DNA of 40,670 bases from Acidobacteriaceae bacterium (GTDB taxonomy: Bacteria > Acidobacteriota > Terriglobia > Terriglobales > Acidobacteriaceae): assembly GCA_025934135.1 (NCBI GenBank), contig JAICYR010000007.1, forward strand, positions 1 through 40,670, written 5' to 3'. The position numbers and the translations under genes are program-made. The notes beneath the pieces were generated by a model. That model did not search any database. It saw only the letters and a program-made list of their open reading frames with translations, and was not told the origin of the DNA. This document shows positions 13,593 through 18,799 of this stretch, one piece after another. Positions within the stretch are counted from its first letter, which is position 1. Each line of letters begins with the position of its first letter.

Positions 13593-14468
13593 CTATTTCT
13601 TCGCGGAGGATGCCGGACGGAACTGGTTCGCCCGCTCAAATTCCTCGCGGAGGGCTGGGGTCTTCAGGTTTTCGCGGAGGTGCGCCAGCCTCTGTTCCAG
13701 AGCAAGCAGGGTAGCGGTGATGGCCTCAGTATTCGTGTGGGCCACGTCGCGCCACATGGAATAGGGGCTTGATCCGAGGCGCGTCATTTCGCGCAGAGCG
13801 CGTCCGCCGATGGGCAGCACCTCGTCCTTGGCGGCGAACTCGTCCTGTAGTAATGCGGTCAGGGCTGTAGACACGAACTGCGGCAGATGGCTGACCCAGG
13901 CGCACAGCACATCGTGGCGCTCGGGCTCGAGATCGAGTACTCGGCAGCCGAGCTTTTCCGTCCAATCGCGCCACTCGTCGGCGAGTGCGCGGGAGTCCGG
14001 GTGCATGGCGTGCGACTCGGGTGTTTCGGTAAAGAGCCAGGCTGCGCCATTAAACAGGTTGGCGTCGGCATTGGCCGCGCCGCTTACTTCCTTTCCGGCC
14101 ATGGGATGCCCGGGAAGAAACCCGGCGCTATCTGGAAGATTGTAATGGCCGCGTGCCTGATCGACGAGCGCGCGTTTGACGCTGCCCACATCGGTCACGA
14201 GCTGGCCGGGTCTGAGCACGGGAGCGAGGCGGTCGAGCCAATCGAGAATGGTGAGGACCGGCCCGCAGAGCAGGACCACATCGGCGGCTTGCGCGGCGGA
14301 GAGTCCATCGGCCGCGGCGGAGTGGATCGAGCCGCGCTCCAGCGCAAGTGCCAGTTCGCTGGGGTTGGGGTCCCATCCGGAGATTTCTCCAGTGAAGCCG
14401 TGCGCGCTCAGCGCAAGGCCCACTGAGGCCCCAATGAGACCCGTGCCCAGAATAGCGAGGCTCTTCAT
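13593..14468 (-). CDS. tyrA: Prephenate dehydrogenase
   Basis: 291 residues. It converts prephenate to 4-hydroxyphenylpyruvate with NAD(P)+, the tyrosine branch. The Rossmann motif ILGTGLIGASVGLAL is at residues 6-20. A helical prephenate-binding region follows, with LPGHPMAGKEVSG (about 118-130) and WVSHLPQFVSTAL (about 191-203). The length matches dehydrogenases without an attached ACT or chorismate mutase domain. It starts five bases after the DAHP synthase stop and is the last biosynthetic gene of the aromatic operon. Confidence 0.93.
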   Translation of the reverse strand: MKSLAILGTGLIGASVGLALSAHGFTGEISGWDPNPSELALALERGSIHSAAADGLSAAQAADVVLLCGPVLTILDWLDRLAPVLRPGQLVTDVGSVKRALVDQARGHYNLPDSAGFLPGHPMAGKEVSGAANADANLFNGAAWLFTETPESHAMHPDSRALADEWRDWTEKLGCRVLDLEPERHDVLCAWVSHLPQFVSTALTALLQDEFAAKDEVLPIGGRALREMTRLGSSPYSMWRDVAHTNTEAITATLLALEQRLAHLRENLKTPALREEFERANQFRPASSAKK

Positions 14469-14473
14469 CGCCT

Positions 14474-15523
14474 TTAGACGGCCACCGTGGCTGCCGCGGC
14501 CGGCTCCATGATGGTGCGCCCGACGGCCGGAGCGATGAGCCGCAGCTCATCCATGAGCCTGACAAGCTGCTCGGGGAAGAGCGACTGCGCCCCATCGGAG
14601 ACAGCCTTGTCAGGGTTGGGATGGACCTCGATGAGCAGCCCGTCCGCGCCCGCCGCCACGCTGGCGCGAGCCATCGGCGCAACCATGTCGCGGCGTCCGG
14701 TGCCGTGCGACGGGTCGCCGACGATGGGCAGGTGCGAGAGGTGCTTGATGACCGGAATCGCCGAAATGTCCATGGTATTGCGAGTGTAGGTTTCGTAGGT
14801 GCGGATGCCGCGCTCGCAGAGGATCACGTCATAGTTGCCGCCGGAGAGGATGTATTCGGCCGAGAGCAGGACCTCTTCGATGGTAGCGGCGATGCCGCGC
14901 TTGAGCAGCACGGGCTTGCGCACGGTCCCGAGTTCGCGCAGCAGGTTGAAGTTCTGCATGTTGCGCGCGCCCACCTGGAAGCAATCGACGTAGGGCAGCA
15001 TGAGCTCAATCTGTGAGATCTCCATGACCTCGCTGATGATGAGCAGCCCGGTGGCGTCGCCGACTTCGCGCAGCAGCTTGAGGCCTTCGAGGCCCATTCC
15101 CTGGAAGGAGTAGGGCGAACTGCGCGGCTTGAACGCGCCTCCACGCAGGAACTTGGCTCCGGCGGCTTTGACCTGCGCGGCGCAGGTGAAGATCTGGTCG
15201 CGGCCTTCGACCGAGCACGGCCCGGCCATCACGACCAGCTCGTTGCCTCCGATCTCCACTCCGTTGGGGAAGCGGACGATGGTGCCTTCGGGGCGGAAGC
15301 CGCGCCCGGCGAGCTTGTAGGGCGAGGAGATGCGGACAGCCTCGGAGACGCCGGGCAGCAGCTCGAAATCCTTGTGGTCGAACTGCGCCGGGCGGCCCAC
15401 TCCGGCCAGGATGGTCTGCAAGGCCCCGGTGGTGCGGTGGACGTTGAAGCCGATGGCGACCATGCGCTCGACTACGGTTTGTATCTGTTCTTCAGTGGCG
15501 TTTTCCTGCATTGCGACAATCAT
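14474..15523 (-). CDS. aroF: 3-deoxy-7-phosphoheptulonate (DAHP) synthase, type I-beta with N-terminal regulatory domain
   Basis: 349 residues from the ATG at 15523 (MIVAMQ start typical of the family, AGAGAG upstream). An in-frame ATG at 15562 would overlap the chorismate mutase and is less likely. It catalyses PEP plus erythrose-4-phosphate to DAHP, the first step to all aromatic amino acids. A ferredoxin-like regulatory domain (about 1-70) precedes the barrel with VVMAGPCSVEG, KFLRGGAFKPRSSPYSFQG, VLLKRGIAAT and IVGDPSHGTGRRDMV. This is the Thermotoga-type layout, where the N-terminal domain gives feedback inhibition by Tyr/Phe. It starts 22 bases after the chorismate mutase. Confidence 0.95.
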   Translation of the reverse strand: MIVAMQENATEEQIQTVVERMVAIGFNVHRTTGALQTILAGVGRPAQFDHKDFELLPGVSEAVRISSPYKLAGRGFRPEGTIVRFPNGVEIGGNELVVMAGPCSVEGRDQIFTCAAQVKAAGAKFLRGGAFKPRSSPYSFQGMGLEGLKLLREVGDATGLLIISEVMEISQIELMLPYVDCFQVGARNMQNFNLLRELGTVRKPVLLKRGIAATIEEVLLSAEYILSGGNYDVILCERGIRTYETYTRNTMDISAIPVIKHLSHLPIVGDPSHGTGRRDMVAPMARASVAAGADGLLIEVHPNPDKAVSDGAQSLFPEQLVRLMDELRLIAPAVGRTIMEPAAAATVAV

Positions 15524-15545: not shown

Positions 15546-15839
15546 TTACTGATCTTTGCCATTCGCTCCGGCCGAGGCCAGCTCGTCCTTCTGGAGCGCG
15601 CGCATCACGTCGATGATGCGCTCGTAGATGTGCTGCAGCTCAATGTCCGGGAGCGGTCCGTTGTTGGCCGCGCGGACATTGTCGAAGATGACGCGCTCGC
15701 GGTTCGGCTCGTAAATGGGGAGGTCGGTGGAGCGCTTGAGCTTGCCGATCTCGTGCGCCGCCGCGGCCCTCTGGTTGAGCAGCGCGACGACCTGCCGGTC
15801 GATTTCGTCGATCTTCCGTCGCCAGTCCGCTATGTCCAT
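15546..15839 (-). CDS. Chorismate mutase, AroQ class
   Basis: 97 residues, all helical. It isomerises chorismate to prephenate for Phe and Tyr. The family pattern is clear: WRRKIDEIDRQVVALLNQRA (residues 6-25), then AHEIGKLKRS and YEPNRERVI, with the second helix containing IYERIIDVMRALQ. It is a free-standing mutase, not fused to dehydratase or dehydrogenase. An AAAGGA-like site lies upstream. It sits 69 bases after trpA and is followed by DAHP synthase; free AroQ mutases are known to form complexes with DAHP synthase in some bacteria, so an interaction is possible. Confidence 0.93.
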   Translation of the reverse strand: MDIADWRRKIDEIDRQVVALLNQRAAAAHEIGKLKRSTDLPIYEPNRERVIFDNVRAANNGPLPDIELQHIYERIIDVMRALQKDELASAGANGKDQ

Positions 15840-15908: not shown

Positions 15909-16688
15909 TTAGCGGGCCTGCAGCGCCGGGGCGTACAGGCCCTGAATAAATCGTGCGATGGAGTTGGGCGCTTCCGCCGGGGCTGATTTCTCGATGATGG
16001 CCACCAGCGCGCTTCCGATTACAGCCGCGTCGGCGAACTGGCCCACGGCAGCAAAATGCTCCGCATTGGATACGCCGAATCCCACCGCGATGGGCAGATC
16101 GGTATATTGCCGCAGGCGCTTAACCAGCGATTTGGCATCCGACGCGAGCGACTGCTGCGTGCCGGTGATGCCGATGCGCGAGATGGCGTAGACAAAGCCC
16201 TTGGAGACGGCAGCGATTCGTTCGAGGCGGTCGTCTGGGCTGGTGGGTGCGGCCAGAAAGATGGGTGCGAGGTGGTGCCGTTCGAGCGCGGCGAGGTAGT
16301 CGGCGGCCTCCTCGACAATCATGTCGGTCACGAGTACGCCATCCACTCCGGCGGCCTCGGCGGCCGCACAGAATTTTTCCAGGCCGAAGCGCAGGATGGG
16401 ATTGAAGTAGGAGAAGATGACCAGGCCGGATTCCGGCCGCGCGGCGCGCAGGTCTTTGGCGAGAGCGAGCACATGGGCGAGGCTCGTGCCGCGAGCCACA
16501 GCGCGTTCACTGGCGCGCTGGATCACGGGGCCATCGGCCAGAGGATCGCTGAAGGGTACGCCCAGCTCGATCACGTCCGCGCCCGCGTCAATGGCGGCCA
16601 GCGCGATGGCGCGGGTAGTCTTGAGGTCGGGATCGCCGGCCGTGAGATAAGCAACGAGGCCGGGCTTGCCGGCAAATTGAATCGGCAT
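15909..16688 (-). CDS. trpA: Tryptophan synthase alpha subunit
   Basis: 259 residues, TIM barrel. It cleaves indole-3-glycerol phosphate to indole, passed to TrpB. The catalytic residues are Glu41 (DVIELGVPFSDPLADGP) and Asp52. Later motifs are GVDGVLVTDM and YAISRIGITGTQ, and VGFGVSNAEH for the phosphate site. Its start lies three bases after the trpB stop, the usual coupled arrangement. Length is normal and no defect is seen. Confidence 0.97.
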   Translation of the reverse strand: MPIQFAGKPGLVAYLTAGDPDLKTTRAIALAAIDAGADVIELGVPFSDPLADGPVIQRASERAVARGTSLAHVLALAKDLRAARPESGLVIFSYFNPILRFGLEKFCAAAEAAGVDGVLVTDMIVEEAADYLAALERHHLAPIFLAAPTSPDDRLERIAAVSKGFVYAISRIGITGTQQSLASDAKSLVKRLRQYTDLPIAVGFGVSNAEHFAAVGQFADAAVIGSALVAIIEKSAPAEAPNSIARFIQGLYAPALQAR

Positions 16689-16691
16689 CGC

Positions 16692-17897
16692 TCAGGCTCC
16701 CTTTAGATTGAGTTCGCGGGAAAGAATTCCCATGTCTTTGTCGCCGCGTCCGGAGAGGTTGACTACAAGTATGTCATGGCGCGGAAGCGTGGGCGCGAGC
16801 CGAATGCACTCGGCCACGGCATGAGCACTTTCGAGAGCGGGCAGGATTCCTTCGGTGCGGGCCAGCTTCACGGTTGCGTCCAGCGCGGCTTCGTCCGTGG
16901 CGCTGACGTACTCGGCGCGCCCTGTGTCGTGGAGGGCCGCATGCTCGGGACCGATGGAGGCGTAGTCGAGTCCGGCGGAAACGGAATGCGTCAACGCGAT
17001 CTGGCCGTTGTCGTCCTGTAGGACATAAGAATAGGTGCCTTGCAGCACACCCGGCGCTCCTCCCTGGAAGCGCGCTGCGTGTTCGCCGAGCTTGGTGCCG
17101 CGTCCTCCGGCTTCGACGCCGATGAGGCGGACGTTCTTGTCGGGAATGAATTCGTAGAATGCGCCGATGGCGTTCGATCCGCCGCCGACGCAGGCAATGA
17201 TGGCGGTGGGCAGGCGACCTTCCTTCTCCTGAATTTGCTGGCGCGCCTCACGGCTGATGACGCGGTGGAAGTCGCGCACCATGGCCGGATAAGGATGCGC
17301 ACCGAGCACGCTGCCGAGCAGGTAGTGCGTGGTGCGGACATTGGTGACCCAGTCACGCATGGCCTCGTTAATGGCATCCTTGAGTGTCTTTGAGCCGGAG
17401 CTGACGCCGCGCACCTCCGCGCCCAGCAGCCTCATGCGGTAGACGTTCAGCTCCTGGCGACGCATGTCCTCTTCGCCCATGTAGACGACGCACTCCATGC
17501 CGAGCAGCGCGCAGACGGTGGCGGTGGCCACTCCGTGCTGGCCCGCGCCGGTTTCGGCAATGATGCGATGTTTGCCCATGCGCTGGGCGAGCAGTCCCTG
17601 GCCCAGGCAGTTGTTGATCTTGTGCGCGCCGGTGTGCAGCAGATCTTCGCGCTTGAGGTAGATCTTCGCGCCGCCAAGGGATCCAGTCAGGCGTTCGGCG
17701 AAATAGAGCGGAGTGGGACGGCCAGCGTAGTCGCGCAGCAGCGAATCGAGTCGAGCGTGAAAGGTGGGATCGGCCTGCGCCTCGGCGTAGGCGCGCTCGA
17801 GTTCGTCGAGCGCGGCCACCAGCGTCTCCGGCACGTACCGGCCGCCATAGGGGCCGAAGCGCCCGGCGACTTGCGATATTGTTTCAGCGGTGCTCAC
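16692..17897 (-). CDS. trpB: Tryptophan synthase beta subunit
   Basis: About 401 residues. A PLP enzyme condensing indole with serine. The PLP lysine lies in [19 protein letters not shown]; the phosphate loop is [24 protein letters not shown] and [12 protein letters not shown] are conserved. It is of the common TrpB1 type. I prefer GTG at 17897 because AGGA lies seven bases upstream; TTG at 17900 is the alternative. It is the first gene after the attenuator at 17922-18073. Confidence 0.96.
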
Positions 17898-17921: not shown

Positions 17922-17953
17922 AAAAAGCCGCGACCTTTGTCGGCCGCGGCTCT
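17922..17953 (-). terminator. Attenuator terminator (segments 3 and 4) upstream of trpB
   Basis: Read on the minus strand, AGCCGCGGCC (17951-17942), a six-base loop and GGTCGCGGCT (17935-17926) form a ten-pair stem with one G-U pair, followed directly by a T run (17925-17922, plus the stem's last T). It ends about 25 bases before the trpB start and after the leader peptide stop, so it would stop transcription before trpB. Its 5' arm also belongs to the antiterminator described at 17946-18019. Confidence 0.88.
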
Positions 17954-18038
17954 TTCGGAAAATCGTAGAATCTGAATCTCGTTGCTGAATCTTCAGATGT
18001 GCACGTCCGCCAGAGCCGCTATTGAGAACCAATAGCGG
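17946..18038 (-). promoter_or_regulatory. Alternative RNA pairings of an aromatic amino-acid attenuator
   Basis: Minus-strand segments: 1 = CCGCTATTG (18038-18030); 2 = CAATAGCGGCTCT (18024-18012); 3 = AGAGCCGCGGCC (17953-17942); 4 = GGTCGCGGCT (17935-17926). Segments 1 and 2 pair perfectly over nine bases with a five-base loop. GCGGCTCT of segment 2 pairs perfectly over eight bases with AGAGCCGC of segment 3. Segments 3 and 4 form the terminator. Segment 1 covers Tyr12 (last base)-Arg13-Tyr14-Trp15 codons of the leader peptide, so a ribosome held there frees segment 2 to block the terminator. Confidence 0.85.
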
Positions 18039-18073
18039 TACGTAAAGGCGAAGAACTGCGGATGCGTACTCAT
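17993..18073 (-). CDS. Aromatic leader peptide of the trpB operon (26 residues)
   Basis: A short frame starts at ATG 18073 and ends TGA at 17995-17993. Residues 7-16 read FFAFTYRYWF: four Phe, two Tyr and one Trp in ten positions. Codons are TTC TTC GCC TTT ACG TAC CGC TAT TGG TTC. A weak GGA site lies seven bases upstream. It lies wholly between trpF and trpB and overlaps hairpin segments 1 and 2, as expected for a ribosome-sensing leader. The clustering of aromatic residues exactly where segment 1 lies is the main evidence that it is translated. A longer overlapping frame in this gap has no such bias. Confidence 0.82.
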   Translation of the reverse strand: MSTHPQFFAFTYRYWFSIAALADVHI

Positions 18074-18121
18074 CTTGATATCCAAGATACATGGAGCGGG
18101 GAGGAACGGCAACTGAAATTT

Positions 18122-18799
18122 TCAGGCGCTGACTTCGCCGGTGTTTCCTAGTCGCATGGCGGCAATGCGCGCGTTCTCGATGAAGGCCCTGACTTTCGCC
18201 GGGTCTTTTTTGCCGGGAGCGGCCTCGACGCCGGATGCGACATCCACGCCCCAGGGACGGAGTACGGTGATGGCCTCGCCCACGTTCTCGGGATTGAGAC
18301 CACCAGCGACGATGATCCGCAGCGGCGAGCCGGCAACTTTTTCCCGTGCCGCTTTCCAATCAAACGGAACCCCTGTTCCGCCCAGCAGCGTGGCGGTACG
18401 TGAGTCGACAAGAACCGCGTCCACCGCCCCGTCGGCCCGCGCCATGCGCAACTCCATCTCCAGCCCCTGCTGGAAATGGACCACTTTCAGAATATGCAGA
18501 TGTTGCGAAGAGAAGCGCTCGCGCAGCCGGGGGGCCGCATCGGATTCGCATCCGGAGTGAAGTTGGACTCCGGTCAGTCCGCAGTCCTGAACCGCGGCGA
18601 TCAGGTCATTCAGGCCCGCATTGACGAACACCCCTATTTTCTCCACGCTCTCGGGCAAGTGCGGCGTGATGGCCCGGACCTGCGCGGGAGTGACGCGCCG
18701 CGCGCTCTCAGCAAAGACGAATCCAACGGCATTCGCGCCCGACTCGGCGGCGAGCAGAGCGTCTTCAAGAGAGGTGTTCGCGCAAACCTTTATCCACAT
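18122..18799 (-). CDS. trpF: Phosphoribosylanthranilate isomerase
   Basis: 225 residues, TIM barrel. It turns N-(5-phosphoribosyl)anthranilate into CdRP. The general base is Cys6 (IKVCANTS, where the usual motif is KICGxT) and the general acid Asp132 (AVLVDSRT), followed by GGTGVPFDW and the phosphate site IIVAGGLNPENV. The change from CG to CA after the catalytic Cys is unusual but mild. It overlaps the end of trpC by ten bases. The leader peptide begins 49 bases after its stop, so trpCF can be expressed without passing the attenuator. Confidence 0.95.
   Translation of the reverse strand: MWIKVCANTSLEDALLAAESGANAVGFVFAESARRVTPAQVRAITPHLPESVEKIGVFVNAGLNDLIAAVQDCGLTGVQLHSGCESDAAPRLRERFSSQHLHILKVVHFQQGLEMELRMARADGAVDAVLVDSRTATLLGGTGVPFDWKAAREKVAGSPLRIIVAGGLNPENVGEAITVLRPWGVDVASGVEAAPGKKDPAKVRAFIENARIAAMRLGNTGEVSA

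Follow-up and report, generated by a model that had tools for sequence, protein, structure and literature searches.

A putative ribosome-mediated attenuator with phenylalanine, tyrosine and tryptophan codons before trpB and other aromatic-pathway genes of Acidobacteriaceae

Leader-peptide attenuators are known from the trp and pheA operons of Escherichia coli and the his operon of Salmonella, where, in the account consulted, the control region serves one amino acid (PMC1183508). Leaders with mixed codons are described as well. The aroR leader of Corynebacterium glutamicum, which precedes aroF and carries a Phe-Tyr-Phe motif, is reported to respond to Phe and not to Tyr (PMC11802643, PMC4046766), and the upstream open reading frame (uORF) of the Corynebacterium ilvB motif combines codons for several related amino acids, the branched-chain Ile, Leu and Val, with a terminator and an antiterminator before one target gene (PMC11109978). 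In Acholeplasma, the uORFC-13-1 motif before aroF (24 sequences, from one genus plus environmental ones) has a predicted uORF, a terminator, possible promoter boxes and a ribosome binding site, and is described for Phe only (PMC8632094). The trpB motif of Firmicutes and Fusobacteria, which comes with a terminator and lies mostly before a transporter gene and sometimes before trpB, is proposed to be a riboswitch, and its authors leave room for a classic attenuator (PMC11109978). Trp, cysteine and branched-chain elements are reported from Actinobacteria, with none for Phe or Tyr in the passages on these elements (PMC1262725), and short leader genes have been counted in Acidobacteria, with no aromatic ones named in the corresponding excerpt (PMC4833913).

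We analysed a stretch of 40,670 nucleotides (the window) from a genome of the Acidobacteriaceae, in which a short frame rich in all three aromatic amino acids lies between trpF and trpB. As in the trp, pheA and his leaders, its candidate control codons lie over segment 1 of a set of predicted alternative pairings (1:2, 2:3 and 3:4) that ends in a T run, with biosynthetic genes below; unlike those leaders, as they are described in the source cited above, it would serve three amino acids, its composition varies by target and its start codon adjoins the promoter. It shares with C. glutamicum aroR a mixed aromatic leader before a DAHP synthase gene, but that leader, compared by description, has no Trp in the motif given, a single described target and a host from another phylum. 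The likeness to the Acholeplasma motif lies in the uORF and terminator before aroF and in the possible promoter boxes, that to the ilvB motif in one leader with codons for related amino acids, and that to the trpB motif, which again was compared by description and occurs in other phyla, in the terminator and the occasional position before trpB. The mechanism read from these features would be a known one, of the classic trp, phe and his type, and is strongly supported; the mixed aromatic codons, the several targets with matched leader content and the probable leaderless start would be new. In the retrieved portions of the open-licence PubMed Central literature searched, neither an acidobacterial aromatic leader nor a Phe-Tyr-Trp leader is described, and the latter, its four target genes and its leaderless layout appear to be undescribed there.

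The leader frame and its pairings

The leader frame (Table 1) starts with an ATG at 18073 and stops with a TGA at 17995-17993 on the minus strand, and its residues 7-16 read FFAFTYRYWF. Of the 465 frames in the window that start with ATG and span 12-60 codons, it is the densest in aromatics, with 7 per 10 residues against 5 for the runner-up and 4 for the eleven frames that follow. Hairpin 1:2 has nine pairs (18038-18030 with 18024-18016), the alternative 2:3 exactly eight (18019-18012 with 17953-17946) and stem 3:4 ten, including one G-U (17951-17942 with 17935-17926), followed by T to 17922. A preliminary description had placed the frame and the pairings 1:2 and 2:3 at these positions and counted ten pairs in 3:4, and the sequence agrees in every case; the predicted 2:3 duplex is even longer than the exact eight pairs claimed, by four pairs (CGGA/TCCG). 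The start of trpB, said to follow the terminator after about 25 bases, is a GTG at 17897, 25 bases past the T run. Folding of the RNA, suggested there as a check, gave -65.7 kcal/mol for 18090-17915 (RNAfold), far more stable than shuffled sequences (z = -4.19, with 0 of 200 shuffles equally stable). A point that weighs against the attenuator reading is the position of the leader stop codon, 17 nt past segment 2: a ribosome resting there would leave segment 2 uncovered, and termination would thus depend on 1:2 re-forming.

The frames and the profile matches (Table 1) agree with the proposed gene order, trpF - leader - trpB - trpA - chorismate mutase - DAHP synthase - prephenate dehydrogenase.

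Table 1. Features of the leader region and its neighbouring genes in the window.
Feature	Coordinates	Strand	Description and basis
trpF, upstream neighbour	18122..18799	minus	best NCBIfam match phosphoribosylanthranilate isomerase NF002298, 185.5 bits, below the cut-off of 215
Promoter -35 box, TTGCCG	18107..18112	minus	9 nt past the trpF stop; sequence
Promoter -10 box, TATCTT	18084..18089	minus	17 nt spacer, 10 nt before the leader ATG; sequence
Leader peptide frame	17993..18073	minus	26 codons, translation MSTHPQFFAFTYRYWFSIAALADVHI; sequence and homologous leaders in relatives
Segment 1	18030..18038	minus	over the Tyr-Arg-Tyr-Trp codons (Tyr12-Trp15); sequence, fold, covariation
Segment 2	18012..18024	minus	predicted partner of segment 1, or of segment 3 as antiterminator; sequence, covariation, duplex energy
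Segment 3	17942..17953	minus	predicted terminator 5' arm, or partner of segment 2; sequence, covariation, duplex energy
Segment 4 and T run	17922..17935	minus	predicted terminator 3' arm; sequence, fold, covariation
trpB, tryptophan synthase beta	16692..17897	minus	candidate controlled gene; TIGR00263 over cut-off
trpA, tryptophan synthase alpha	15909..16688	minus	TIGR00262 over cut-off
aroQ, chorismate mutase type II	15546..15839	minus	PF01817 over cut-off
aroF, DAHP synthase	14474..15523	minus	NF006421 and TIGR01361 over cut-off; PF00793
tyrA, prephenate dehydrogenase	13593..14468	minus	PF02153 and PF20463 over cut-off

Distribution, target genes and conservation in relatives

Within the genus, the element lies between trpF and trpB in five of nine genomes (G000, G003, G004, G005 and G007), and in the other four (G001, G002, G006 and G008) the trpF-trpB gap holds no leader and the DNA search gave no match. 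The five leaders have F-T-Y-R-Y-W and I-A-A-L-A in common and vary in their N-termini and spacers. Conservation had been proposed beforehand as a check, and the leader frame is indeed conserved in relatives, the aromatic run being kept while its flanks change.

A pattern scan of 300 genomes of the family used a five-base loop, so that the window, whose loop has four bases, went unmatched; three of the matches to this pattern are leaders before aroF in other genera (L061, L073 and L074). Together with the five leaders of the genus, these three make up the eight sequences from which a covariance model (R1) was built. At E<=0.1, R1 has matches in 152 of the 300 genomes, spread over 40 of 79 genera; the weakest of these matches may have arisen by chance. 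The best 150 matches were listed, all with E<=4.6e-5, and 149 of these were fetched. Their first downstream gene is trpB in 51, aroF in 44, aroK in 36 and aroQ in 16; 147 of the 149 precede an aromatic-pathway gene and the other two run off the contig end. A first set of 109 matches divides into 44 before trpB, 29 before aroF, 20 before aroK, 15 before aroQ and one at a contig end, and a hold-out of 40 of the 41 remaining listed matches, mostly weaker and classified after the pattern was known from the first 109, into 16 before aroK, 15 before aroF, seven before trpB, one before aroQ and one at a contig end. Genes were labelled by blastp to reference proteins with profile-checked families, the family of a second aroF reference (from G011) being checked only via its similarity to the aroF of the window. 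As R1 ends at the terminator and carries no information on flanking genes, the association with these genes is independent evidence. The proposed placement before the trpBA operon holds, but trpBA is not singled out: related elements occur on aroF, aroK and aroQ too, and together with those on trpB they make up one family of predicted attenuators.

A second model (R2) was applied to 80 named trpB loci. In seven of these it detected a leader immediately before trpB, the carriers including Edaphobacter sp. RYN_7, Granulicella sp. bog_405 and an uncultured Terriglobus; its other matches include a weak one well away from trpB (L253, E 0.012) and one on the reverse strand at a terminator (L256). 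Upstream of the trpB-type leaders trpF was seen at 8 of 44 loci, an uninformative count, as most of these have only about 300 nt of upstream sequence. The genome of the window contains two weaker model matches besides, one of them the opposite strand of the same site; its second-best match (C115, L226, E 0.019), which has neither an aromatic reference gene downstream nor a leader, we attribute to chance. At several aroK loci (L129, L133, L155, L161 and others) the next gene encodes a multi-spanning membrane protein, presumably an AI-2E-type transporter, and this gene may share the attenuator. At four aroQ loci (L162, L166, L173 and L183) a frame that looks like lpxC lies downstream of aroQ and the leader, in the same direction.

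A TTG-type -35 box with a spacer of 16-18 nt recurs in many relatives. A promoter of this form, with its -10 box ending 5-12 nt before the ATG, was found in 81 of 109 leaders against 2.8 in shuffles, and at 13-20 nt in 17 of 109 against 2.5; the promoter-to-ATG stretch is longer in the more distant leader of G392. The sole resemblance to a ribosome binding site in the window is a GGA 7 nt before the ATG, between it and the -10 box, which from its position is probably transcribed at best in part. The spacing of promoter and ATG suggests leaderless or near-leaderless messages. The lack of a ribosome binding site, as proposed for the present leader, is also reported for the leader peptide of C. 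glutamicum ilvBNC, which belongs to a branched-chain operon.

A strong terminator sits between trpF and trpB, and one might therefore see in the element a plain terminator after trpF with a frame that arose by chance. We consider this scarcely credible, since the terminator stands behind a conserved promoter of its own, just before trpB, and the frame and the 1:2 pairing recur before four different genes.

In an alignment of 90 sequences, which was fitted to the model and so favours the attenuator reading, 10 of the 18 pairs of 1:2 and 3:4 are changed on both sides. Cells with such double-sided changes number 95, against 25.7 in shuffles, with 0 of 500 shuffles as high; 96.8% of cells pair, no shuffle of the 500 reaches any of the five observed measures, and control structures slid along the alignment do far worse than the 1:2/3:4 structure. 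The suggested check for covarying segments 1-4 thus shows compensatory changes in 1:2 and 3:4 and none in 2:3, the core of which (GCGGC/GCCGC) is almost invariant in the 90 sequences. Covariation is therefore silent on 2:3, for which the support comes from energy, and the invariance is expected because one segment must pair with two others. Median duplex energies are -19.7 kcal/mol for 2:3, -16.2 for 1:2 and -21.8 for 3:4. When 2:3 was compared with shuffles of segment 2, at most 5% of these did as well in 78 of 109 leaders, and more than 5% in 31.

Probable control codons and amino acid content

Counted from the codon at the start of segment 1 in 103 distinct leaders, with the frame of each match chosen for the most aromatic residues (a bias toward the attenuator reading), the aromatic fraction is 0.54, 0.87, 0.87, 0.95, 0.88 and 0.61 at codon offsets -4, -2, 0, +2, +3 and +4, drops to 0.11 at +5 and is at most 0.07 from +6 to +13; further upstream, at offsets -8 to -5, it is intermediate (0.24-0.34). 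The run is not a plain block, as aromatics are rare at offsets -3, -1 and +1 (0.16, 0.10 and 0.01). The front edge of a ribosome reaches about 12-14 nt past the A-site codon, and ribosomes at offsets -3 to +4 would thus block segment 1 and leave 2:3 free. Aromatic residues are concentrated at codons from which a stalled ribosome would cover segment 1. By the geometry of these footprints, Phe10, Tyr12, Tyr14 and Trp15 are the likely control codons, and Phe codons 7 and 8 are probably too far upstream for a ribosome stalled there to block segment 1.

The Trp content of the leader depends on the gene below. In the control window, defined for Trp as the residues up to five past the segment-1-start codon, Trp is present in all fetched leaders before trpB (51/51) and aroK (36/36), in 36 of 44 before aroF, the eight without it being the exceptions to the rule, and in none of 16 before aroQ. 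The corresponding counts are 44/44, 20/20, 23/29 and 0/15 in the first 109 matches and 7/7, 16/16, 13/15 and 0/1 in the hold-out. Presence in 64 of 64 leaders of trpB and aroK against 0 of 15 of aroQ gives a Fisher value of 1.9e-16, which ignores relatedness; by genus, nine Trp-bearing trpB/aroK genera stand against five Trp-free aroQ genera among the first 109. Phe and Tyr, in the same 109, are both present in 44/44 leaders before trpB, 20/20 before aroK, 27/29 before aroF and 15/15 before aroQ. Some aroK and trpB leaders have lost the usual Trp codon and have Trp a few codons upstream instead (FWYRYC in L178, L187 and L194; IYWRFTYRYR in L338). Outside the family, Trp occurs in two of seven aroQ leaders (G402 and G362) and in none of the other five.

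That Trp codons track the downstream gene strengthens the reading in which three amino acids are sensed, and we consider it somewhat more likely than not that the element truly responds to Phe, to Tyr and to Trp. Codon content does not prove such a response, because the Phe-Tyr-Phe leader of C. glutamicum aroF is reported to be unresponsive to Tyr. With that leader, which responds to Phe, as precedent, the element could be a true attenuator that answers in vivo to no more than one or two amino acids (at trpB most probably to Trp, and perhaps also to Tyr), the other aromatic codons being fixed by RNA pairing or descent. The Tyr12-Arg-Tyr14-Trp15 codons do largely coincide with segment 1, so that the motif is partly constrained by pairing; yet offsets -4, -2 and +4 lie outside the paired columns and are still aromatic in fractions of 0.54, 0.87 and 0.61, which pairing alone cannot explain. 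The retention of Trp elsewhere in the leader after loss of the usual codon, and its absence before aroQ in the family though the hairpin persists, also speak against a response to fewer amino acids, which we regard as possible but rather unlikely.

Conserved hairpins and a terminator could also serve a ligand- or protein-binding device, that is, a riboswitch or the site of an RNA-binding protein, with the frame accidental. However, the peptide changes with the downstream gene, the start codon keeps a narrow distance from the promoter in most leaders, and Rfam release 15 (including Trp leader and T-box RF00230) gave no match at the gathering cut-off in the window, the only two matches around the leader being far below it, at E 5-7. 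We therefore consider such a device very improbable. The probability that the mechanism is a ribosome-mediated transcription attenuator is, in our estimate, very high.

Two features of codon usage were seen in passing. Phe at offsets -6 and -2 is almost always encoded by TTT (23/23 and 87/88, in leaders L116-L224); the downstream genes have 505 TTT and 698 TTC, and the leaders overall 248 TTT and 141 TTC. The bias at these two offsets might reflect an RNA constraint or a deliberately slow codon. In one aroF leader (L174) the Trp codon TGG is TGA, and the peptide ends MHTKRFSSAFEYRY at the expected stall site.

Occurrence beyond the family and proposed regulation

Run on 297 genomes of the phylum, R2 gave matches at E<=0.001 in 31, of which 26 belong to the family itself. 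One match was inspected in each of four of the five out-of-family genomes (leaving out G520 and a second match in G575). Two are leaders before aroQ-pheA-aroF, with FYFAFTYRFFF (L248, in G392) and FSFYFYF (L249, in G575). The other two are false: L250 is a terminator between two unrelated frames, presumably rpmA and obg, and L251 lies inside a coding frame. In a survey of 119 genomes, 45 of them with aroQ, 29 aroQ loci were inspected under a rule of 5 aromatics in 10 residues; an aromatic uORF was present at 8 and absent at 21. Aromatic leaders with terminators were also found by this survey in G402, G369, G345, G350 and G362; a doubtful uORF 313 nt from aroQ, with no terminator (L401), was left uncounted. 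A looser form of the predicted attenuator thus reaches beyond the family.

Searches of 31 relatives, some of them without the attenuator, detected the positive controls and no TrpR (PF01371) or T-box (RF00230). It is fairly probable that the family possesses a regulon of leaderless attenuators at trpB, aroF, aroK and aroQ, looser in other families, in which each leader works as an OR-gate and its Phe, Tyr and Trp content corresponds to the branch served: all three amino acids for the Trp genes, aroK and most aroF, and Phe and Tyr only for chorismate mutase. This regulon may replace control by TrpR or T-box.

The course of events proposed for the locus is as follows. A ribosome would start at or near the 5' end of a leaderless or near-leaderless message. 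Shortage of Phe-, Tyr- or Trp-tRNA would make it stall on Phe10, Tyr12, Tyr14 or Trp15 and cover segment 1, whereupon 2:3 would form and RNA polymerase would read into trpBA-aroQ-aroF-tyrA. When none of the three amino acids is scarce, the ribosome would reach the stop codon, 1:2 and then 3:4 would form, and transcription would end near 17922. Given the related devices before aroF, aroK and aroQ in relatives, the element would be one node of an aromatic amino acid regulon. What can be read directly from the DNA is the frame, the mutually exclusive pairings 1:2, 2:3 and 3:4 predicted with their T run, their conservation and the placement before aromatic-pathway genes; the explanation as a whole, that is, an attenuator with its own promoter between trpF and trpB, stall-dependent read-through and a place in the regulon, we consider highly likely.

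With these findings, multi-target leader-peptide attenuation would be known from a major soil phylum as well, and the leaders would form a natural series of sensors whose amino acid content matches the pathway branch under control. Such a series would make the integration of three tRNA charging levels by one leader directly testable, and the apparent leaderless start raises the question of whether ribosome loading at the 5' end sets the race between ribosome and polymerase. With the RNA model, operons for aromatic amino acids could also be located in these bacteria, many of which are uncultured.
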